IMG/VR virus record: IMGVR_UViG_3300050138_000571
Span: 1 to 64,000 of that record
From: a virus
DNA: 64,000 bases
Direction: 5' to 3' (one strand)
Position 1 is the first letter of the stretch, and the number at the start of each line of letters is the position of its first letter. Both the position numbers and the translations under genes were made by a program. Positions 756 to 13,661 of the stretch are shown here, piece after piece. Under the pieces are notes generated by a model, which searched no databases, had not been told where the DNA came from, and was given only the letters and a program-made list of their open reading frames with translations.

Positions 756-1211
756 TTACTGCGAGGAGCGGGCGCCGTTGTAGAGGTTCGGGTAGATGGA
801 GGCGACCGGGGTGCCGGTGATGCCGGCGACGGCGGGGGCGCTGCCGTTGGCAACCTGGTACCAGTCGAGACGGGTCCCGAAGGTGTTGATGACCATCAGG
901 AGCGAGGCCAGCTCGACGGGGGTGAGATACCCGACCGTGTGGCCGAGGGTCGCGTCGACCGACTCGGTGACCAGTTGGCAGACCGTGGGGGTGGGCACGT
1001 CGGCGGCCTGGCCGATGGCGTTCAGGGCGGGCCCGGGGCTCGGGGCAATGTAGCGGATGAACGCGCTCTTGCTGCCCGCGGTGCCGGCGCCACACGAAAT
1101 CGTGGTGTTGCCGTTGGCGTCGTTGCCGACGGTGACGGGAGTCATGGTGCTGAGGCGCTTCGCCAGTTCGTCACCGACGCGCTGACCGAGGGCATAGGCT
1201 TTGTAGCTCAT
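756..1211 (-). CDS. small virion protein, 151 aa (unidentified)
   Basis: Begins MSYKAYALGQRV and is rich in Thr, Val and Ala without charged runs, which suits a capsid or decoration protein. It lies between the prohead protease and the partial Pro-rich protein, where many phages encode the capsid or decoration protein. A CAATCAT motif lies about 90 nt upstream, a longer leader than at other sites of that class. No catalytic motif is visible; the role is inferred from position. Confidence 0.7.
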   Translation of the reverse strand: MSYKAYALGQRVGDELAKRLSTMTPVTVGNDANGNTTISCGAGTAGSKSAFIRYIAPSPGPALNAIGQAADVPTPTVCQLVTESVDATLGHTVGYLTPVELASLLMVINTFGTRLDWYQVANGSAPAVAGITGTPVASIYPNLYNGARSSQ

Positions 1212-1350: not shown

Positions 1351-1710
1351 ATGAAAGAGACCTATCGCTGTTCGCAATGCAGGTTCCCTAAAGACCGCTC
1401 AGAGTTCCACGAGGAGATGCGGCCCGATCGGAAGCGCCCGGTGTCGTCTAGATGCCGCGATTGCCGCTCGGACAACTATCACGCGACCAAATACGACCAG
1501 AAGTGCATGGCCTGCCTGAAACCTCGGGCCCTGGACTCAAACGGGATCTGCAGTCGCTGCAACGACGCCTCCGGCAAGCGCCAATGCAGGCTCTGCAACG
1601 AGATGCGACTTCGTTACTTCGACTACTACGGGCAACGCCGCGTATGCCGCCATTGCATGGCCGCGAGGCGGCCGAAAATTACGCGGCCTTCGGCTGCTTT
1701 GGCGCCGTAG
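1351..1710 (+). CDS. multi-zinc-finger protein related to phage HNH N-terminal modules
   Basis: 119 aa with five CxxC pairs (YRCSQC, SRCRDC, KCMAC, SRC, RQCRLC and RVCRHC blocks), spaced like tandem zinc knuckles. The first CxxC-x(~25)-CxxC unit matches the N-terminal module of the HNH proteins at 11017 and 29522, but no HNH core follows, so this may be a nuclease remnant or a free DNA-binding protein. It is oriented against the head operon, its 3' end overlaps the protease-GGDEF gene by 32 nt, and it has its own CAATCAT motif. Confidence 0.7.
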   Translation: MKETYRCSQCRFPKDRSEFHEEMRPDRKRPVSSRCRDCRSDNYHATKYDQKCMACLKPRALDSNGICSRCNDASGKRQCRLCNEMRLRYFDYYGQRRVCRHCMAARRPKITRPSAALAP

Positions 1711-4099
1711 GCGCCTTGGGCCCCGTCGGAGTCGCGGTCTTCGGCATCGCTGGCGGTTTCGGCACCTCGGGCTTCGGCATCTTGGGCTCAGGGGGAGCCG
1801 CGGCGGGGCCCGACTGAGGCTTTGGCAGCTCGGCGTGGGCAGCGAGGGCGCTGGTTTGGGGACTGTGAAGCGGAACCGCGCCTTCGCTTCCTGGAACCAA
1901 CGAGTGGGCCATGTTGGGCGTGGATCCCGCAGGAAAGACCCGCGTACGATCACGTTCGTCAGCGATATGCTCTTGGCCAGGATGGTATTTTCGAGACTTG
2001 GCCTGACTTAGGGCCTGGTCCGCCTGTTCTGGATTGATCCCGAATCCCATCCCCGTCGACAGCTTGTGGATCCCGCCCATCGGAGGCACTGCCTCCAGCT
2101 TTTCGTGGAGCTTGCGCGCGAACGCCATCGCGTGCTCATTCGAGGGGAAGTGAGCCGTCATCTCGTCGCCACCGACGCGGAACAACTTTCCTACGCCAGG
2201 CGCGGCTTCATCGATCGCGGACCGCAGCGTCTTGCCGTAGGTGCGGATCGCGTCGTCACCCATGGCGTGGCTGTGGGTGTTGAGCTTCTTGAGGTCGTTG
2301 AGGTCCATGCCCACGTACACACCCGGCTTGTTCTTGGAGCGGAACTCTTCCCACGCCTTCCTGTTGCCAAGGCCCGGGACCATGGGATCGCCGTAAACGT
2401 GCTGGGTCATGCCCTCGGACGTACCTTTGGGGATGTGGCCCGCGGCTTCGGCGGCGCGGATGTGGGCGAGAAGGTCCTGGGCATGGGGGGTGGACGAGGG
2501 ATTGAGAGGGGTTGTACCGTCGTCCGAGGAGGCAGGCTTGACGCCGGGCGGCTGGCGCATGCCCTTGGCGAGGTCCGCGAACTGCTCCTCCATCTTGGCG
2601 ATGGTCCCGGCCAAATCCGGCGCCTTGTACCGCAAGGTCGCGGCCCCACTGCTGACGTTGGCCAGGATGGCCGCAGCCTCCTCGGGCGTGATGAGCTTGG
2701 CGTCCAGAAGTACGTTCCCGCCGTGAAATTCGACGGTGTGGGGCTCGTCGAAGCCGACTCGATGGTAGTCAAACACCGGAGCCCGGACCGGAGCCGGCGC
2801 CGGGATCGGCGCGTCGGGCTGGGGCGAGATTTCGTTGCCCTGCGGCTCTGGCGGCACGTACGGGGTCTCTTTGACCTCAATATCCGGGCTCTGCTGCATC
2901 GCCTGGATCATGTTGACCGTCGAGCTGGTCAAGGGGCCCTCGGGGATCGCCTTGGCAATCAGCCCGAAGTAGTCCTCCAGGATATGCAGCTCGTTATTGA
3001 TCAGGATGAAGCGGCCGGCGAGACGTAGATCCCCGCTGACTTTCATGCTCACCGAATAAATGGTCGGCTTCCTGGGGTCCCCGAACAGAATGGATGAACG
3101 GAGATCGTTCAGGTGCTTGCGGAGCGAGATGCCCCAGGAGTCCAAGAGAACCATCGGGTCGGATTTGCTGACTTGCGAGCGTTTGACCTGGACATCGTCG
3201 ACGATCTTCTCGAAGTGGTCGAGGTACTCGTCGCTGGCCTCGGGAAGCTCGTGACGTAGGAGGGTCCGGAACTCGGCCTTATCGAAAGTCGAGCGTTGCT
3301 CCATGTACCGGCGGAAGGCGTCCAGGGCCTTCGACTTGAGTTTGTCTTTCTTTGAGGGGCCGTCCATGACCTCGCGCTGGAGGGCTGCGCCTCCAGTCAA
3401 GGAACTCGGGGCCGCGTCGTAGCTGCCCGCGGCAAAGGTCTTGGCGATCGGGTCCTCGACGATCGGGTTGCCGACAAATTCCACGACCCCGCCGAGGCGA
3501 CGTCCGAACGAGGTGCCGAAAGTCGGCTCGCTCTTGAATGCGTCCTCCAGTAGCTTCGACACCTTTTTGCCGTCATGCCTCTGTTCGTAGCCGGCTGGGG
3601 CATTGGGGTCTTCCAACAGAGCCGTGTCTGCGGTCTTATTGCACGGCCGAGTAGTGATCGCGATTGCCAGGCACATTGACTCCAGCAGATCGCCGCCATC
3701 GCGGCGGAGCGTGGACCCCTCGATAGACAAACGACAGACTAGGGGCTCGTTGTTCGCGGCATTATCCCGCATGATGGCAGCCAGGGCCTTGGCGCCCTCA
3801 TGGCCGGCGCCATCCCAGAGTCTCCCCTTCACATAGATCAGGGGCTGCTTAATCCGATCCCAGTACATCCGCTGCCGCTCGTCTTCACAGTCGGATCTCT
3901 CGTAGATCTTCTTCAGGTAGACGACTTTGCCAACGATGGCGGAGGGCCCCGAGGAGGCGTCGGCGTGCTCGTAGTTGAAAAGGATGCCCTCTGCCGAATC
4001 CCAGGCGCTACAGTCGCATCCCTCGATCGACAATCTTTCGCCGCTGGAGTCCAAGGCCTCGCTGCCCGCGACGCCGTCAAAAATGAGACCGGTAGACAT
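1679..4099 (-). CDS. prohead protease-like protein fused to a GGDEF domain, 806 aa
   Basis: Residues about 1-170 look like a prohead serine protease: His45 in FNYEHAD, Ser125 in CRLSIEG, and AIAITTRPCN, which resembles the VAIT..P.N block of that family. Residues about 250-400 are helical, then comes a Pro-rich linker. Residues 585-705 form a GGDEF domain: Asp599 and Asn607 in MDLNDLKKLN, Asp615 in HAMGDD, and GGDEM at 643-647. There is no RxxD inhibitory site. The C-terminus is a Pro/Lys-rich tail. The ATG overlaps the upstream GIY-YIG stop as TAATG. Protease function is inferred from motifs and its place next to the portal and MuF genes; diguanylate cyclase activity is unproven. Confidence 0.8.
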   Translation of the reverse strand: MSTGLIFDGVAGSEALDSSGERLSIEGCDCSAWDSAEGILFNYEHADASSGPSAIVGKVVYLKKIYERSDCEDERQRMYWDRIKQPLIYVKGRLWDGAGHEGAKALAAIMRDNAANNEPLVCRLSIEGSTLRRDGGDLLESMCLAIAITTRPCNKTADTALLEDPNAPAGYEQRHDGKKVSKLLEDAFKSEPTFGTSFGRRLGGVVEFVGNPIVEDPIAKTFAAGSYDAAPSSLTGGAALQREVMDGPSKKDKLKSKALDAFRRYMEQRSTFDKAEFRTLLRHELPEASDEYLDHFEKIVDDVQVKRSQVSKSDPMVLLDSWGISLRKHLNDLRSSILFGDPRKPTIYSVSMKVSGDLRLAGRFILINNELHILEDYFGLIAKAIPEGPLTSSTVNMIQAMQQSPDIEVKETPYVPPEPQGNEISPQPDAPIPAPAPVRAPVFDYHRVGFDEPHTVEFHGGNVLLDAKLITPEEAAAILANVSSGAATLRYKAPDLAGTIAKMEEQFADLAKGMRQPPGVKPASSDDGTTPLNPSSTPHAQDLLAHIRAAEAAGHIPKGTSEGMTQHVYGDPMVPGLGNRKAWEEFRSKNKPGVYVGMDLNDLKKLNTHSHAMGDDAIRTYGKTLRSAIDEAAPGVGKLFRVGGDEMTAHFPSNEHAMAFARKLHEKLEAVPPMGGIHKLSTGMGFGINPEQADQALSQAKSRKYHPGQEHIADERDRTRVFPAGSTPNMAHSLVPGSEGAVPLHSPQTSALAAHAELPKPQSGPAAAPPEPKMPKPEVPKPPAMPKTATPTGPKAPTAPKQPKAA

Positions 4100-4818
4100 T
4101 AATTAGCCCCCAAGTACGTGAACGACATCCCGCGCGTTTGCGGCCGTTGCCCCTTCAGGACCCTAGAGATGCATTCCGTGGAGATGTTGAGGGTGCGAGC
4201 GGCCCCTTTAACCGTTTCGTATCGGACTCCGCTCTGGTCGACGAACGGTCGCCTTCTGCTCCCCGGCGGACGCCCCAGGGTGACCGCGATCTTCCGGGCC
4301 TCCTCCTTGGACCGAATTGGGACGCCGGACGCACGGAGGACGCTCAGGACGACGTTGGACTTGACCCCAAACTCCCTCCCCGCAAGCCGCATGGAAGCTC
4401 CGCTCCGATACAGAGCGATCAGCCCTTGGCGGTCCTCTTCTGAGAGACCGCCGGCAGAAAGCGACATCTTGAGCCTCGTTTCTGGCGAGTGCTGGTGTCC
4501 CAAGAGACCCTCTCCGCCATCTGTCTGATTGGTCAGTGGCACCCCGGCGGCACGGGCGGCAGCAATCCAATCGCGCTCGGCATCGTCTAACTGAAATTTG
4601 GACAGAAAGGTCTCAAGGACTTCGATCCCGTACGAGAGGCCGTGTCCTTGTAGCTGCTTGATCCAGCGGTCTTTGTGCAGGTTCCCGCCGACAGCCAAGG
4701 ACGAGGGGGTGCCATGGACCTTGGGGCGCTCCAATCCACTGCAGCTCTTCCCGATGTAGCGCCACTGCCCGGAGCGCGGGTCGGCCAGCGCATAAATGAT
4801 GTAGGGCCCAGACGCCAT
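4099..4818 (-). CDS. GIY-YIG homing endonuclease with C-terminal NUMOD-like repeats
   Basis: 239 aa. The N-terminus has the GIY-YIG core (PYIIYAL, then WRYIGKS about 12 residues on), with a downstream GGEG. The middle has helix-turn-helix-like text, and the C-terminus has a NUMOD-like segment (ETVKGAARTLNIS...VLKG). These are free-standing mobile endonucleases in phages. It is inserted upstream of the protease-GGDEF gene and translationally overlaps it (TAATG). It has its own CAATCAT motif 6 nt before the ATG, as expected for a late-expressed homing gene. Confidence 0.85.
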   Translation of the reverse strand: MASGPYIIYALADPRSGQWRYIGKSCSGLERPKVHGTPSSLAVGGNLHKDRWIKQLQGHGLSYGIEVLETFLSKFQLDDAERDWIAAARAAGVPLTNQTDGGEGLLGHQHSPETRLKMSLSAGGLSEEDRQGLIALYRSGASMRLAGREFGVKSNVVLSVLRASGVPIRSKEEARKIAVTLGRPPGSRRRPFVDQSGVRYETVKGAARTLNISTECISRVLKGQRPQTRGMSFTYLGAN

Positions 4819-7253: not shown

Positions 7254-8027
7254 CTACCCGCGCTGGGCCTTATATTCGTCCCATCCGGGATTGACGTACG
7301 TGATCTTGCCGGCGCCATTGAAGCCGTAGCCAGGAAGCAGCGTCGCCGGCCGGCACCGGCAGCTCGGGTGCAGCCCGCACATGCTCGGGGACTCCTCGCC
7401 TCGTTTGTGGAACCCGGCACTGATCTCCGACAACTTCCAGGCCCGCGGCGTCACCTTGTTGGGCAACAGGTGGATGCGCGTGCATTCTTCGCAGACATGG
7501 CCGTCGCGGACGATGATAAAGAACATAGTCGGGTCCGAAATCCCAGAGGCTGCGTTGACCTTCACGATCCCTTCGAGGGTCCCGAGGTTGCTGGCGGTCG
7601 TTGCTTGGCTGTCAACGATCTTGTTGACCTCCGACGTCACCTGGCCCCAGACCCGGGCCAGCTCGCCTTCGAGCACGGTCTCCAGGTTCGTCTTGATCTT
7701 CTTCGAGTAGGTGTTCCGGAGCCACGAGTCCACGGCGCCAGTGACCCGGGCCTTCGCGCGCTCGCGCTCGGCGTCCAGGTAGGCCTCGGTGATCCTGGCA
7801 AAGCCGTCCAGGGCCGTGTCGTTCGCCGTGGTGCCTTCTTCTGCGGCGGCTCGCTGGTAGAGCCCGGGGAGGCTGAAGTACTCGCGGTGGCCGAAGCCAA
7901 TCGTCTTCGCCTCGCGAGACGAGAGGTAGTCCGGGCCCAGGACCCGAGACTTGATGCGGTTGAAGACGGTCTCGACGGCCAGGTGGATCGTGCTGACCGA
8001 CTGCCGGGACAGAGGAACGATCTTCAT
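7254..8027 (-). CDS. MuF-type minor head protein
   Basis: 257 aa. A long helical N-terminal half is followed by the MuF/SPP1-gp7 signature: DGHVCEECTRIHLL, then about 40 residues later LHPSCRCRPATLLPG. It sits directly downstream of the portal gene, with the ATG 3 nt after the portal stop. Proteins of this family sit inside or at the vertex of the procapsid. The motif and gene order agree. Confidence 0.85.
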   Translation of the reverse strand: MKIVPLSRQSVSTIHLAVETVFNRIKSRVLGPDYLSSREAKTIGFGHREYFSLPGLYQRAAAEEGTTANDTALDGFARITEAYLDAERERAKARVTGAVDSWLRNTYSKKIKTNLETVLEGELARVWGQVTSEVNKIVDSQATTASNLGTLEGIVKVNAASGISDPTMFFIIVRDGHVCEECTRIHLLPNKVTPRAWKLSEISAGFHKRGEESPSMCGLHPSCRCRPATLLPGYGFNGAGKITYVNPGWDEYKAQRG

Positions 8028-8030
8028 CGT

Positions 8031-10046
8031 TTAGTTCCTCGGCGCTTGCTTCTTGGCCGCCGCTACGATGTCTTTCGTCGCCTCTTTCAGATCTGCTTCG
8101 AGCCCCTGCGTGAATCGCTCCATGATCTTCAGGTGTTGGTGAAGCAGGCGCCGCTGGGACTGCGGGAGTTGCTCCTCTTTCTTGGTCAGCAGACCGATGG
8201 CCTGATCGATCGAGCGCGTCAGCTCTTCGCCGCCGTCGCCCGCAGCCTGCTCGGGAGGAGCATCGCCTTCGCCACCGGCGGCCGGTGAGGCTCCGTCCGG
8301 AGGCGGTGCTGCTGCGGCCTGTTGCGCGGCCTGCATCAACTGCATCTGCTGGAAGTAGAAGGGATCGCGGAGGTAGTCATACCGGGGGTCCTTCGATGCC
8401 CCCTCGATGCCCAAGAATTCCTCCATAATGACGCCAACGGGGACCAGCTTGTCGAGGGCCGCCTGCCACTGCGGGTTAAGGAGAAAGTCGCCGCAGAACT
8501 TCTTGGGGAGCGTCGGCTTCTCCACCTTCTGCATGATCTGGTTGACCGTGAGGTGGAGGGCGGCGTCTTGCTGAAGACGGACCGATTCTTTTTCCTCGGT
8601 GTCCGCGTCGAGGCCCGTGAGTTCCACTCGGCACATCTTGGCCAGCTCGGGATCGATCAGAGGAAAGAGGACGTTGTTGGTGAAGTCCTCGAATTTCGTG
8701 AGCAGAGGCCGAATCCCGACGTCCCGGGCCGCCGTCATCTGGAACTGGTTGTTCGACTCCGAGAGCGCCTGGCTGTTCGGGCCCTTCGACAGGTAGGCCC
8801 AGCCCGGCAGCTCGTCGGGACTCATCATGAACGCGCTCAGGATCGAGCGGGCGTTCATGTCCGTCAGGTACGTGAACTCGGCGTCTCGGGAGGCGCCGTC
8901 CATCGTGATGAATTCGACCTCGTCGTTCGGCGAAATCGAGAACGTCGGCAGTCGCCAAGAGTTGTTCACCCCGTTGATGGACGCCTGGAAGTTCTGCTGA
9001 ATCGTCTTCAGCATGTTCTCGTCGACATCGTCCGACTTGAACACCAGCATCCCGCGGGCGGCGCGGCCGGTCTGGAAATAGAGCTGGTTGTGCTGGGTGA
9101 TGTTCAGGTGCGTGAGCACCGCTTTGATGCAGGTGTCGAGCGGGGGGACCGGGTATCCGTCGTTCTCCCAGTCGTTGACCGGGTCGAAGTTGAAGACGGC
9201 CAGCTCTTTGTCGCTGAAAACCTGCCATTGGACGCCATCGATCACCTGCACCCAGTCAAAGTGCGAGGGGATCTCCCCTTCGGCCTTCAACTTCAGGTTT
9301 TTCAGTTGCTCTAGGGCGTTCAACGAACGGGCGCGGACACCGTCTTGCCCGGCTTCGTCGGGGTTGGCGATGAATATCGTGCCGACGTCGACCGGGCGGA
9401 AGGAATGGAACTCGTCTTTCCCGCCGAACTTGGGCTTAGTAATGATTTCCGTGGCAATGCGCCCCAGGACTACCGCATTGCGCGCGCTCAACTGCAGGTA
9501 GGTGGCGAAGGACATCTGGTCCTTTTGAGCCACCTCAGTGGTATCACCACAAGTGCTCAGTCTCGCGACCGCAGCCTTGATCTTTTTCTGCAGTTCCTTC
9601 TTCTGGTCATCGCTGAGGTTGTCGAGGACGCCAGCGTTGGCGTTGATCTTGAACCCGGTCTTGAAACGAGTCGGGCGAGGACGTCCGAAGGACCCGATCT
9701 GCATCTCGCGGGCGCGGACGATGGCGGCCACTAGGTCGTCCTGGATCGCGATCCGCTTCAGGAACGAGTCTGGAACGCCCCTGGTCTTGGGCTTGTAGAT
9801 CGAGATGTACTTGCCCTGCATGGGCGAGACTTCGAACGCCAGGCGCTCGATGGTCCGGCCGCCGCCACTGAGCACGCCAATGAGCGCCTTCTCCAGATTC
9901 TCGCCCTTGCTCAGCTCCGCACTCTTGGTGTCGATGCTGAACCTGACCGGCCTGCTATTCTTGACCGAAGGCGGGGCCGTCGACAGGAGCGGGAATCGCT
10001 TCGTAAGCGACGACTCGGACTTCTTGAAGAGATCGGTGGCGCTCAT
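8031..10046 (-). CDS. portal protein
   Basis: 671 aa, about the usual size for large-phage portals. It shows the expected pattern: a helical start, a central RPVDVGTIFIANPDE / FNFDPVNDW segment, ITQHNQLYFQTGRAARG, then a long stem region with ISPNDEVEFITMDG and a Gln/Ala/Pro-rich, helical C-terminus. It lies between a virion gene and the MuF gene, downstream of TerL. The start ATG abuts the upstream stop (TAAATG). Confidence 0.85.
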   Translation of the reverse strand: MSATDLFKKSESSLTKRFPLLSTAPPSVKNSRPVRFSIDTKSAELSKGENLEKALIGVLSGGGRTIERLAFEVSPMQGKYISIYKPKTRGVPDSFLKRIAIQDDLVAAIVRAREMQIGSFGRPRPTRFKTGFKINANAGVLDNLSDDQKKELQKKIKAAVARLSTCGDTTEVAQKDQMSFATYLQLSARNAVVLGRIATEIITKPKFGGKDEFHSFRPVDVGTIFIANPDEAGQDGVRARSLNALEQLKNLKLKAEGEIPSHFDWVQVIDGVQWQVFSDKELAVFNFDPVNDWENDGYPVPPLDTCIKAVLTHLNITQHNQLYFQTGRAARGMLVFKSDDVDENMLKTIQQNFQASINGVNNSWRLPTFSISPNDEVEFITMDGASRDAEFTYLTDMNARSILSAFMMSPDELPGWAYLSKGPNSQALSESNNQFQMTAARDVGIRPLLTKFEDFTNNVLFPLIDPELAKMCRVELTGLDADTEEKESVRLQQDAALHLTVNQIMQKVEKPTLPKKFCGDFLLNPQWQAALDKLVPVGVIMEEFLGIEGASKDPRYDYLRDPFYFQQMQLMQAAQQAAAAPPPDGASPAAGGEGDAPPEQAAGDGGEELTRSIDQAIGLLTKKEEQLPQSQRRLLHQHLKIMERFTQGLEADLKEATKDIVAAAKKQAPRN

Positions 10047-11030
10047 TTATTCTGCCGAGACGACCGACACGTTGGCCGTGGCGGACGAGCGGTTGATCAA
10101 CGTCAGCTGCCAGACGGGGCCGAACTTCATTATCACGCCCGGGAAGCGGCAGTTTCCGGGCAGGAGCGGCGTGACCACGTTGGATACGTCGGTGCTCCCA
10201 TTGAGCTGGACGATGATTTCCTGGTCGGTCTCGATCAGGAGGAACCGCTTTGCGGACGTATAGACGGCGACTCCGGCCGCGGTGGGCTCGATCCCGGTTT
10301 GGTTCGCCAGCGGCAACAGGGCCTGGAACTCGATCCAGCCAGCGGTCACGGCCAGGATCTCGTACGAGGACAGCGCACTCGCGGCGAAGCCCGCCGAAAG
10401 TCTCAGGGTGTCGCCGATCTGGGTCCCGGACGGCGAAAAAGCGAAAAAGGAGACGTCATCCGTGGGAGTTACGGTCTCGGAGGTGGCCGAGAACGCCCCG
10501 GTGCCGCGGGTGAGCACCAGGATCGTGGAGGAGGCCGTGAGAACGGTCCACCAGCCCTCGTTGAGCGAGCTGAAGGGGCCGGCCGGGTCTCCAGTCGACA
10601 GTCCGGGGATAAATACCTGGTCGCCACCAGCGATTGCCGAGAACGGGGAGCCCGACTGTGCGGTTAACGAGACGCTGAGGTTCGCGTTCACCGTCACCAC
10701 GACGCCGATGGTGTTCAAGGTGACGGCGCGGGCAGTGCGGAAGCCGGGGGCAGTGCCGCCAGTGGACGCTAGACGGTAGCGGTCGGCGGATAGCGAGCTG
10801 GAAGTGAGCGAAAAGACGGTCGTATTGTCGATCGTGAGGCTTCTCGTGCCGTTCAGGATCGTCTGGGTGGCGCCCGGGGGCAGCTCGACGGGCACGGTGC
10901 CGGCGTTCTCGAACGGCAGGTTCACCAGCGAGGACCCCCAATTGATTGGGGTTTTCTGAGGATTGCTGGTTCTCGCCGAGTCACAGTAGGCGACGACCTT
11001 CATCGCGAGGGAGAGGTTAGAGCGAGACAT
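10047..11030 (-). CDS. virion structural protein, 327 aa
   Basis: Thr/Ser/Gly/Val-rich beta-strand text without catalytic motifs, typical of a head-decoration, neck or fibre-like protein. The start at 11030 (MSRSNLSLAM) is chosen because the CAATCAT motif ends 9 nt upstream; a longer frame to 11141 would run through the motif. It lies between TerL and portal. The upstream HNH gene overlaps its first 14 nt. Exact role unknown. Confidence 0.75.
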   Translation of the reverse strand: MSRSNLSLAMKVVAYCDSARTSNPQKTPINWGSSLVNLPFENAGTVPVELPPGATQTILNGTRSLTIDNTTVFSLTSSSLSADRYRLASTGGTAPGFRTARAVTLNTIGVVVTVNANLSVSLTAQSGSPFSAIAGGDQVFIPGLSTGDPAGPFSSLNEGWWTVLTASSTILVLTRGTGAFSATSETVTPTDDVSFFAFSPSGTQIGDTLRLSAGFAASALSSYEILAVTAGWIEFQALLPLANQTGIEPTAAGVAVYTSAKRFLLIETDQEIIVQLNGSTDVSNVVTPLLPGNCRFPGVIMKFGPVWQLTLINRSSATANVSVVSAE

Positions 11031-11748
11031 CGTTACCGTATGATTGCGGGTCGGGGGCCACGAGTGGGTCCCACCTTCCGCCCTTCGAGATATTGTCCTC
11101 GCCCCACAAGGGTTGAAGGTTCTTGAAGTTGCACGCCTCAAGGAGCTGCTCTCGGTCGGTCAGGTCAAAGGAGACCAGAGGGCGCTTGTGGTCGACGTGC
11201 CAACCGTGGCGGCCGTAGTTGCTCCAGCTCATGACCTCTCCGGTCTCGGGACGCGGGTAGAACTTGGCTTCGAGCCAGACCCTCAGCTCGGGGATTGTGC
11301 AACCGAGATCTCGGACGGCGGAGCCCGATTTGAAGTTGCCGCGGACAGCCACGCTCAAACGCGAGCGAAGAGCTTGGCGAAGCCTGAAGTCTAGATCCTC
11401 CTTCCTGCGTCGCATGTTGTAACTCTTCTTCCAGGAGTTCGCGTGGGCGCGATTATTCTGTCTCCAAATCTTGGAGGAAGCCTTCTGCGGCTCCGGATTT
11501 GACGCGTATCGTTCACTTCGTGCCTTGACAAGGGCGTCGGAGTTGGTGGACTGATAACGCCTAACGGTTGCCTTTACACGCTCCGGATGCCTTCCCGCCG
11601 ACTCTTTGGAATGCGTCTTTGCGCACCGTTTGCACCGAGGGTCTATTCCGTCAAGCCTGCTTGAATCTCGGTAGAAATCCGAAGCCAACTTCGGATCGCC
11701 ACACTTGCAGCACGTTCGTGGAATGGACGCTACGCCTACAGGCTCCAC
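11017..11748 (-). CDS. HNH homing endonuclease with N-terminal zinc finger
   Basis: 243 aa. The N-terminal RTCCKCGDP...DPRCKRCAK module is followed by a basic helical region and a C-terminal HNH block (WHVDHKRPLVSFDL...NFKNLQPLWGEDNISKGG). Start GTG lies inside the end of terL, and the 3' end overlaps the next virion gene and its promoter motif, so insertion is compact on both sides. Typical free-standing phage homing gene next to terL. Confidence 0.8.
   Translation of the reverse strand: MEPVGVASIPRTCCKCGDPKLASDFYRDSSRLDGIDPRCKRCAKTHSKESAGRHPERVKATVRRYQSTNSDALVKARSERYASNPEPQKASSKIWRQNNRAHANSWKKSYNMRRRKEDLDFRLRQALRSRLSVAVRGNFKSGSAVRDLGCTIPELRVWLEAKFYPRPETGEVMSWSNYGRHGWHVDHKRPLVSFDLTDREQLLEACNFKNLQPLWGEDNISKGGRWDPLVAPDPQSYGNDVSL
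11040..11046 (-). promoter_or_regulatory. CAATCAT motif, candidate late promoter element
   Basis: Lies within the 3' end of the HNH gene, 9 nt before the ATG of the virion gene at 11030. It would let virion genes be transcribed separately from terL. Confidence 0.65.
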
Positions 11749-13661
11749 TTAAAATTGCCCTTCTTCCCAGACTGGCCGTCCGGGCCTCCGTCTACGATAT
11801 TATTTTGTTCTTTCCATTTCTTGAACCAGTCCGCCGTATGCTTTTGGAAGTTCTCCAACGGGGTCAGCGGCACCGTTTTGACGTCGTTGGCCGGGGCCGA
11901 GACGCTGCGCTTGCTGGGCGGGAACTCGTTCATGACAAGGTAGCGGATGGCGTCGCACTCATCGTCGTCTTCCTCGTCCGGGGCATTGGTCGGATCCCCC
12001 TTCGAATCGATGGCCCAGTGGTACTGGGACATATTCTTGAAGAGCAGCTCGACTTCGGGGTCTCCGGCCAGAAAGTAGAGCAACGGCTCTCCGATGGTCG
12101 GGCGAAGGCGCATGCAAACGATGTCGATGCCGCCGTTGACGGTGCCGGCCCCCTTGTCCCATTCCCTCATCCGGTACCCAGACTTCTTGAACATCGCGAT
12201 GAGGTCGGGGCGAGCAGTGTCCGGCCAGACCGACGGGTTGAACGATTTTATGTCCGCGTTGCAGCGGTGGATCATTGTGTCAGGGAGGAGATCGGGTGCG
12301 CTGATGCAACCGATGACGAAGGCTCGGGCGCCGTCGATTGCCGCCAATGGCACTGCAAAATTGTGCCTGAATCCGAAGTCCATGCCGGCACTGAAGCGGA
12401 GGCCGCGGGCCTTCATCAGCGCGATCATCTCTGCTTTGGTCAGGGTCGGCCGGTACTCCTCACCCGTGATCTTCTGCATGATCTGGGCGGGGGTAAGCAT
12501 GTGGATGCTGCGCTCCAGGTGCGGGTAGATGAGGCCTTCAGTCGAGGGCTTACGGCAGAGGAGCTGGGCGTTGGCGGTCGGGATCGAAACCGTCTTGAAC
12601 TGAGTCTGAGTGAACGGGATGGAGCGAAGCAGGTCTGACGTGGATTTTTGCTCGGTGGCGAGCAGGCCGCGGCAGGCAGCGAACATCTTGCAGTTGGTCA
12701 AGCAGCCCGTGTAGCCCTCTTTCGCGACGAACTTCTTCTGGGCCTCCGGCGTCAGCTTGTCGTACTTCTCCTGTGAGAGCGCCACCAGGTTCGGCTCGTC
12801 CAAGTAGATCGGCAGCTTCGGCAGGTCGGGGCGATGCCGTTCTTTCGGGCACGCCTCTGTCACATCGATCAGGTTCCAATGGCGGATGTAGAGGCGGCGC
12901 TCGCCTTCTTTGTCGAACTCGTTGTCGATCTCCTTTTGGACGAGCCCGAACGAGAACTTCCGACTGGACGTAAGCATCGAAAGTGGATTGACACCGGGTC
13001 GGTCGGCTGCCGGGATCATGAGAGATTCCTGGTACGCCGCGATATCGGTGATGACGTCCAACTCGTCAGTGCAAAGGTACGAAGCATGAAGGCCGTTGGC
13101 GCCCTTCATGTTGCAAATGACGACCTTGATGAAGTTGCGGACCTCGTTGTACGAGAGCTTCTCGGCCTCGGAGAGGGCGCTGTATTCGGCCAGAGAAAGA
13201 GTCGTGCCGTCATTTCGGTCGATGTAGCGAAGGATAACGACGAGCCCCTTCGCGTCCCCCTCCACGAAGTCCTTGAAGGGAGGTTTTCCAAAGAAGCCTC
13301 TGGTGTAGCCGAGACTGATGAGGCTTTGGTTCTCGACCGCAGCCATGTGAGCGACGTTGCGGTTGAGGTGGAACACCATCAACAGCTCCAGGATGGCGGC
13401 CGAGAGCGTCTTGAAGCATCCACGGGCCGCGTAGAACAGAGCCCGGCTAAACTCGGGGTCGTTGTCCCGTGCCTTACTGTAGATCTCCCAGATCATGTCC
13501 ATCGGACTGCTGTTCGAGTCCGGGTCCACGATGCAGTCGGGGATGTTCAGGCCCAGGAACAGGAGGATCCAGCGATGGAGTGCCTCCTTGGTGTCGCATG
13601 GGACCGCAAAGATCTTCCTCTTGATGGCCTCCCTTTGTTCGTCTACCGTCGGGTCGCTCAT
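11736..13661 (-). CDS. terL: terminase large subunit
   Basis: 641 aa. The ATPase half has a Walker A-like AARGCFKT (about 78-85) and Walker B-like LCTDELDV with Asp199-Glu200. The nuclease half starts at SAGMDFGFRHN, which carries the first metal-binding Asp, followed by an acidic patch (EEDDDECDAIR). It packages DNA into the procapsid. ATG overlaps the stop of the TerS-like gene (ATGA). The operon starts at the GTTCGCTATAG motif near 16250. Confidence 0.9.
   Translation of the reverse strand: MSDPTVDEQREAIKRKIFAVPCDTKEALHRWILLFLGLNIPDCIVDPDSNSSPMDMIWEIYSKARDNDPEFSRALFYAARGCFKTLSAAILELLMVFHLNRNVAHMAAVENQSLISLGYTRGFFGKPPFKDFVEGDAKGLVVILRYIDRNDGTTLSLAEYSALSEAEKLSYNEVRNFIKVVICNMKGANGLHASYLCTDELDVITDIAAYQESLMIPAADRPGVNPLSMLTSSRKFSFGLVQKEIDNEFDKEGERRLYIRHWNLIDVTEACPKERHRPDLPKLPIYLDEPNLVALSQEKYDKLTPEAQKKFVAKEGYTGCLTNCKMFAACRGLLATEQKSTSDLLRSIPFTQTQFKTVSIPTANAQLLCRKPSTEGLIYPHLERSIHMLTPAQIMQKITGEEYRPTLTKAEMIALMKARGLRFSAGMDFGFRHNFAVPLAAIDGARAFVIGCISAPDLLPDTMIHRCNADIKSFNPSVWPDTARPDLIAMFKKSGYRMREWDKGAGTVNGGIDIVCMRLRPTIGEPLLYFLAGDPEVELLFKNMSQYHWAIDSKGDPTNAPDEEDDDECDAIRYLVMNEFPPSKRSVSAPANDVKTVPLTPLENFQKHTADWFKKWKEQNNIVDGGPDGQSGKKGNFKWSL

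Follow-up and report, generated by a model that had tools for sequence, protein, structure and literature searches.

A head-maturation protease fused to a GGDEF domain in large, mostly uncultured phages and its possible role as a packaged nucleotide cyclase

What a nucleotide-cyclase domain might do on a phage head-maturation protease is the question raised by one gene in the window, i.e., the whole 64,000-nucleotide stretch of DNA analyzed here, whose first base is also base 1 of its source record, a 96 kb IMG/VR contig. The gene had been predicted to join a prohead protease to a GGDEF domain, and it does so in a single ORF of 806 aa with an ATG start and no internal stops; the stop of the upstream ORF overlaps its ATG (TAATG). 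Because the same fused ORF is present in eight further contigs (L002, L012, L016, L019, L022, L078, L080, and L082), the fusion is not an assembly artifact. The L002 ORF is 75% identical to that of the window over 758 aa. The reading that we prefer, to which we give a little less than an even chance, is that the product is a capsid protease carrying an active cyclase, which is incorporated into the procapsid and then probably enters the host by ejection.

The fusion gene and its protease half

The gene lies in a head operon whose order, starting from the right, is terminase large subunit, a 364-aa protein, portal, MuF-like protein, fusion gene, a small gene, and, where the contig ends, a scaffold-like ORF (Table 1). 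A major capsid protein (MCP) gene was not found in the 96 kb contig and presumably lies beyond its end. Two genes resembling homing endonucleases break up the operon: a NUMOD/HTH gene (4099-4818, minus strand), which overlaps the protease start codon at the TAATG, and an endonuclease VII-type HNH gene (11017-11748, minus strand).

Table 1. Features of the fusion gene and its head operon in the window, and enzyme domains on related proteins in other phages.
Feature	Position	Strand	Basis or remark
Fusion gene: head-maturation protease, MCP-like motif, P4 domain, GGDEF, Pro-rich tail	1679..4099	-	806 aa
Protease domain, aa 1-170	3590..4099	-	25-relative conservation, hhalign to SPO1 gp3.2, pLDDT
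Proposed catalytic residues His45 and Ser125	3965-3967 (His45), 3725-3727 (Ser125)	-	invariant in 25/25 relatives
MCP-like block, aa 217-246, contains KTFAAGSYDAAPSSLTGGAALQREVMD	3362..3451	-	common to MCP residues ~10-35
P4 domain, aa 345-495	2615..3067	-	matches separate 150-aa gene of Mx1
GGDEF domain, aa 565-705	1985..2407	-	Pfam, AlphaFold2, Foldseek, PDB profile search
Asp599, metal-binding Asp (PleD D327 equivalent)	2303..2305	-	D in 22/23
GGDEM signature, aa 643-647	2159..2173	-	D of GGDE in 23/23, E in 22/23
Pro/Ala/Lys-rich tail, aa 745-806, including stop codon	1679..1867	-	translation
Small conserved head-operon gene, protease/scaffold interval	756..1211	-	tblastn with L016 155-aa protein, E=5e-11
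MuF-like minor head protein	7254..8027	-	tblastn with L016 homologue; Mx1 homologue is a weak Phage_Mu_F match
Portal protein	8031..10046	-	phrog_12, E=4e-19
Terminase large subunit	11736..13661	-	phrog_5653, E=1.5e-11
Head-maturation proteases with C-terminal PI3/PI4-kinase-like domain	L003:8968-12687, L010:3360-7448, L015:7881-11474
SAM-lyase-family domain at protease C-terminus	L047:8001-9860		above cut-off
DUF3293/SAM-lyase-like domain fused to separate GGDEF protein	L010:7935-9161
GNAT domain fused to separate GGDEF protein	L059:10338-11465

The N-terminal half is, as judged from sequence comparison, an SPO1-type head-maturation protease, in agreement with the original prediction of a prohead protease. 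Over residues 1-308 the protein shares 34% identity with the "putative prohead protease" of Myxococcus phage Mx1 (tblastn, E=5e-51), and SPO1 gp3.2 is a weak tblastn match to the window N-terminus. In a profile-profile comparison (hhalign), a profile of 25 protease relatives matched SPO1 gp3.2 with a probability of 99% (E=9e-18) over the catalytic domain. The family phrog_1028 (head maturation protease) was matched by 15/25 family members, although the isolated N-terminus from the window did not match it. None of the 25 relatives deviates at His45 or Ser125, and the position of the gene in the interval between portal and scaffold/MCP is that of an SPO1-type head-maturation protease. The protease domain was modeled with pLDDT mostly 80-97. 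Comparison of the aa 1-330 model, in which aa 174-246 have low confidence, with PDB folds gave nothing significant, and the assignment is therefore based on sequence and context. A PDB profile search for the protease returned only weak matches, to maltose-binding-protein fusions. No protease relatives were found in the bacterial genomes searched for a prophage or host signal.

The GGDEF domain and its active site

The C-terminal domain, by profile and predicted fold, is a real GGDEF domain. Pfam PF00990 matches residues 581-702 with E=1.3e-7 and 32 bits against a cut-off of 23.8 (hmmscan), and the AlphaFold2 model of aa 335-745 shows the domain with confidence (pLDDT mostly 85-97). The original prediction could be probed by a fold search, and Foldseek assigned the GGDEF fold, with WspR, SadC, and PleD at E 1.4e-5 or better. 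A profile of 15 GGDEF relatives, searched against the PDB, matched 42 solved sequences, nearly all of them named as GGDEF or cyclase proteins.

The active-site residues listed in the original prediction (D599, N607, D615, and G643-G-D-E-M647) are present and correctly numbered. The RxxD inhibitory site is indeed missing, the window having PGVG there and RxxD occurring in 0/15 aligned relatives. Many active cyclases are devoid of this site, so its absence is no bar to membership of the diguanylate cyclases. The window keeps both guanine-contact residues (N607 and D615) and both phosphate-contacting lysines (K604 and K701). Across the 23 distinct members of the family, Arg641, D645, and K701 are found in 23/23, and D599, N607, and E646 in 22/23.

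Position 615 is more variable, with D in 14, N in 8, and E in 1 of the 23. The Asp is present in 9/9 members that are fused to the protease and in 5/14 that are encoded by a separate gene. A similar division is seen for K604, kept in 8/9 fused and 0/14 separate members, the latter having Gly (13/14) or Arg (1/14). All D615N members are separate (L013, L015, L023, L055, L067, L068, L070, and L074) and also have Gly for the phosphate lysine, a combination hinting at a different nucleotide product. In one further separate protein (L059), most catalytic residues are lost. Nucleotide specificity or activity may thus differ in the separate-gene members, as far as these residues tell, whereas the fused set has the canonical GTP/c-di-GMP residues. 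Hypr GGDEF proteins, which make cGAMP, have Ser at the base-specificity position; the window has Asp615, and neither this residue nor a comparison with PADLOC families places it with the Hypr proteins or the mCpol/CRISPR cyclases.

Conservation at the catalytic positions greatly exceeds that in the remainder of the GGDEF domain (15-sequence test, p<1e-5). A comparison of the window with L002 gives a dN/dS of 0.13 for the GGDEF domain and 0.43 for the protease N-terminus, and the GGDEF domain is under purifying selection. From these residues we consider it likely that the domain is enzymatically active, and c-di-GMP is the somewhat favored product in the fused group. The same two genes (1679-4099 in the window and L002:5995-8418) are mosaic: identity is around 90% in the GGDEF half and around 52-67% in the protease half, dS is 0.58 and 1.27, respectively, and tree placement differs between the halves. 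These differences suggest recombination inside the fusion gene.

A domain that makes no signal molecule is an unlikely alternative. The P4-GGDEF part would then be a nucleotide-binding structural or regulatory module for head assembly, with GTP or a host cyclic dinucleotide as its ligand, that dimerizes the protease or times its activation. It would fit that P4-GGDEF always accompanies the protease, that AlphaFold predicts helices ahead of the GGDEF domain that could dimerize, and that the catalytic residues are degenerate in L059 and altered by D615N in eight separate members. However, the joint conservation of the metal Asp, the acidic pair of GGDE, and Lys701 is hard to explain by binding alone. 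Furthermore, sister phages with homologous proteases do not have a GGDEF domain near the head genes, which argues that assembly is independent of it.

Linkage to the head protease and exchange of enzyme modules

The family belongs to a single group of large phages, most of them uncultured. Scans that started from the protease and, separately, from GGDEF or P4-GGDEF yielded the 23 members: nine fused (the window and the eight contigs listed above) and 14 with a separate gene (Mx1, which is L003, and L010, L013, L015, L017, L023, L043, L055, L059, L066, L067, L068, L070, and L074). Three human-fecal "Bacteriophage sp." GGDEF matches that were inspected turned out to be ordinary bacterial cyclases or conjugative-element DNA and were left out, and phrog_5594 was uninformative as a specific phage family since it also matches ordinary genomes, e.g., E. 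coli. In Mx1, three consecutive genes (protease, P4, and GGDEF) correspond to parts of the window's single protein, and the P4 domain also forms the N-terminal half of separate P4-GGDEF proteins. All but one of the separate GGDEF genes (13/14) lie just downstream of the protease, separated from it by no more than one or two small genes; the remaining one, L074, starts at the edge of its contig. A fused or adjoining head protease is therefore found in 22/23 members, and the linkage is near-obligatory. Queries with P4-GGDEF only gave the same picture: 7/7 new loci with enough flanking sequence carry the protease, either fused or upstream.

In the protease tree, GGDEF-bearing phages are on one side and nine phages without GGDEF on the other (91/98). 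For the sister phages, no GGDEF was found near the head genes, a negative that is supportive only, since a PF00990 genome search first missed the window's own domain. The available stretches of L014 and L027, which contig ends cut off, contain no GGDEF. In the GGDEF tree, the separate domains group together (99/99). The fused members do not resolve into a single clade.

The frequency of the separate arrangement bears on a further alternative, that the cyclase is active but works late in the producing cell and is not delivered by the virion. It would raise c-di-GMP in the infected cell, with effects on, e.g., the cell surface, pili or a superinfection block, and cyclic-nucleotide defenses, the fusion being a convenience of the late operon. 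We regard this as the less probable explanation, with a chance of slightly more than one in four. The separate form occurs just as often as the fusion, with its gene simply co-located, stand-alone phage cyclases outside head modules exist in Vojvodinavirus and Yuavirus, and lysogens of one phage with a stand-alone cyclase made more biofilm (PMC8471281). On the other hand, nine distinct contigs keep the GGDEF fused to a protein that acts inside the procapsid, and late expression alone does not require near-obligatory linkage to the protease.

Other enzyme domains occupy the protease C-terminus in related phages. In phages with a separate GGDEF, the examined proteases generally end in a region that matches PI3/PI4 kinases or is homologous to such a region, and the PI3/PI4-kinase-like domain is above the Pfam cut-off in the L010 and L015 proteases. 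Homologous proteases thus exchange GGDEF, PI3/4K-like, and SAM-lyase-like domains, and this suggests that the C-terminus of the head protease serves generally as a slot for carrying effector domains. Such exchange is the pattern outlined for phage polyvalent proteins, the enzyme modules of which are thought to be injected and exchanged on a structural carrier (PMC5512222).

SAM-lyase-like modules are of a type known from anti-restriction, and the one on the L047 protease agrees with a role of the cyclase as an anti-defense enzyme. Its product would be a decoy or competing nucleotide against CBASS-type or CRISPR cyclic-oligonucleotide immunity, and its place beside the head protease would reflect that the protease can trigger CBASS; a prohead protease is a determinant of CBASS activation according to a report listed as reference 128 of PMC12072042. 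The D615N variants may have a different product, which would also suit this role. We nevertheless consider it improbable. The evidence is circumstantial, the fused group has canonical GTP/c-di-GMP residues, and a comparison of the window protein with PADLOC families gave no match better than E=0.076.

Packaging, possible ejection, and known systems

Directly after the protease catalytic domain there is a block of around 28 aa with the consensus KA(L/M)xAG(S/N)Y(N/D)AAPSTLTxGAALQxE(D/S)L, which is also present at MCP residues ~10-35. The MCP copy was seen in L012, L016, L019, and others, and among the ORFs read, a loose block pattern otherwise matched one short chance ORF. SPO1 (L062) likewise has the block in both its MCP (NKALEAG...) and its protease (DKSLEAG...). 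Occurrence in both proteins, also in SPO1, suggests a processing or docking site, and we consider the block a likely candidate for a common signal. Cleavage there would part the protease from P4-GGDEF, which makes the release of the GGDEF domain supposed in the original prediction plausible. For the SPO1/A511-type MCP, a cleavage site has reportedly been published. A search for T4-type (L/I)xE cleavage sites gave a few matches, mostly not conserved between relatives.

Head-maturation proteases of this class act enclosed in the procapsid. In the reading that we prefer, the gene product would be a capsid-maturation protease with a catalytically competent cyclase module, probably making c-di-GMP, and the fusion would place the cyclase inside the head because the protease must be enclosed in the procapsid to work. 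The protease would cleave its own chain at, or close to, the MCP-like block (aa ~217-246), P4-GGDEF would become an internal head protein, and part of it would be ejected with the DNA, as for T4 Alt. The ejected cyclase could then alter host cyclic-dinucleotide signaling at the start of infection, with consequences for motility, pili, surface, and cyclic-nucleotide defenses. Presence of the cyclase inside the procapsid appears likely; ejection into the host is a tentative proposal.

The packaged-cyclase reading draws on the fold, the conserved catalytic residues, the low dN/dS of the GGDEF domain, the linkage to the protease, the enzyme modules on sister proteases, and the MCP-like block. It also has precedents. 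T4 Alt and MuF fusions are given as precedents in PMC5512222, head protease self-cleavage and a set of ejection proteins are described for the giant phage SPN3US (PMC5694885), and purified SPO1-like virions retain residual prohead protease (PMC12282133). Against it stand D615N in eight separate members, the replacement of K604, the degenerate L059, and the result that a search of seven phage genomes gave no EAL or PilZ partners, which an enzyme directed at the host could do without. In addition, 14/23 GGDEF domains are separate and devoid of the MCP-like block, so nothing forces their entry into the head. We find it rather doubtful that the whole clade packages a second-messenger synthase that is released by the protease and injected before phage gene expression, with the D615N sub-branch making a different nucleotide. 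If the packaged-cyclase reading is right, it would be the first case known to us of a c-di-GMP-type synthase within the head-assembly machinery, and phage injection of enzymes acting on second messengers would become testable. Mx1 has the separate-gene form, can be cultured, and infects a model host, so that packaging and function can be tested in it.

The original prediction knew of no described system of this kind, which needs narrowing. No description of a GGDEF domain joined to a head protease was found in the literature available for searching. GGDEF domains in phage polyvalent proteins, however, were proposed in 2017 (Iyer et al., 2017, PMC5512222), and stand-alone cyclases have been described from phages of Bordetella and Pseudomonas. 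The polyvalent proteins resemble the present family in their proposed packaging and injection and in a proposed cyclic-nucleotide role. They differ in being multi-enzyme proteins, an example from a prophage having nine domains or more, and the available portions of that paper describe no fusion to a head-maturation protease. The diguanylate cyclases of Vojvodinavirus and Yuavirus share the phage-encoded GGDEF domain, but are stand-alone 156-aa genes located outside the head region, ahead of the terminase genes, and fall outside the protease-linked family in the tree, where branches are long.

Among the head genes of known phages, SPO1 gp3.2-type proteases (phrog_1028) have a homologous domain, the same place after the portal, and the MCP-like block after the catalytic domain, but gp3.2 has 256 aa and lacks P4, GGDEF, or any other enzyme module. 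The Mx1 head operon (OR576727) has the same order and a homologous protease, P4, and GGDEF, with genes already annotated as "putative prohead protease" and "nucleotide cyclase". It differs in having three separate genes, a kinase-like protease C-terminus, and a GGDEF domain without an equivalent of Lys604; its genome announcement does not discuss the nucleotide cyclase gene (PMC10720576). The best viral structural match, A0A6J5L0Y4 of an uncultured member of the Caudovirales ("GGDEF domain"), spans P4 and GGDEF (E=5e-21) and, judged from this structural match, probably represents the separate-gene form in the database, where it is known by its domain name alone. T4 Alt follows the logic proposed here, as an enzyme that travels in the head and acts on the host after injection (PMC5512222), but it is an unrelated ADP-ribosyltransferase that is not fused to a protease. 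Stand-alone phage cyclases and polyvalent GGDEF proteins were thus already known, whereas the link of a GGDEF domain to the head protease did not appear in the literature searched.
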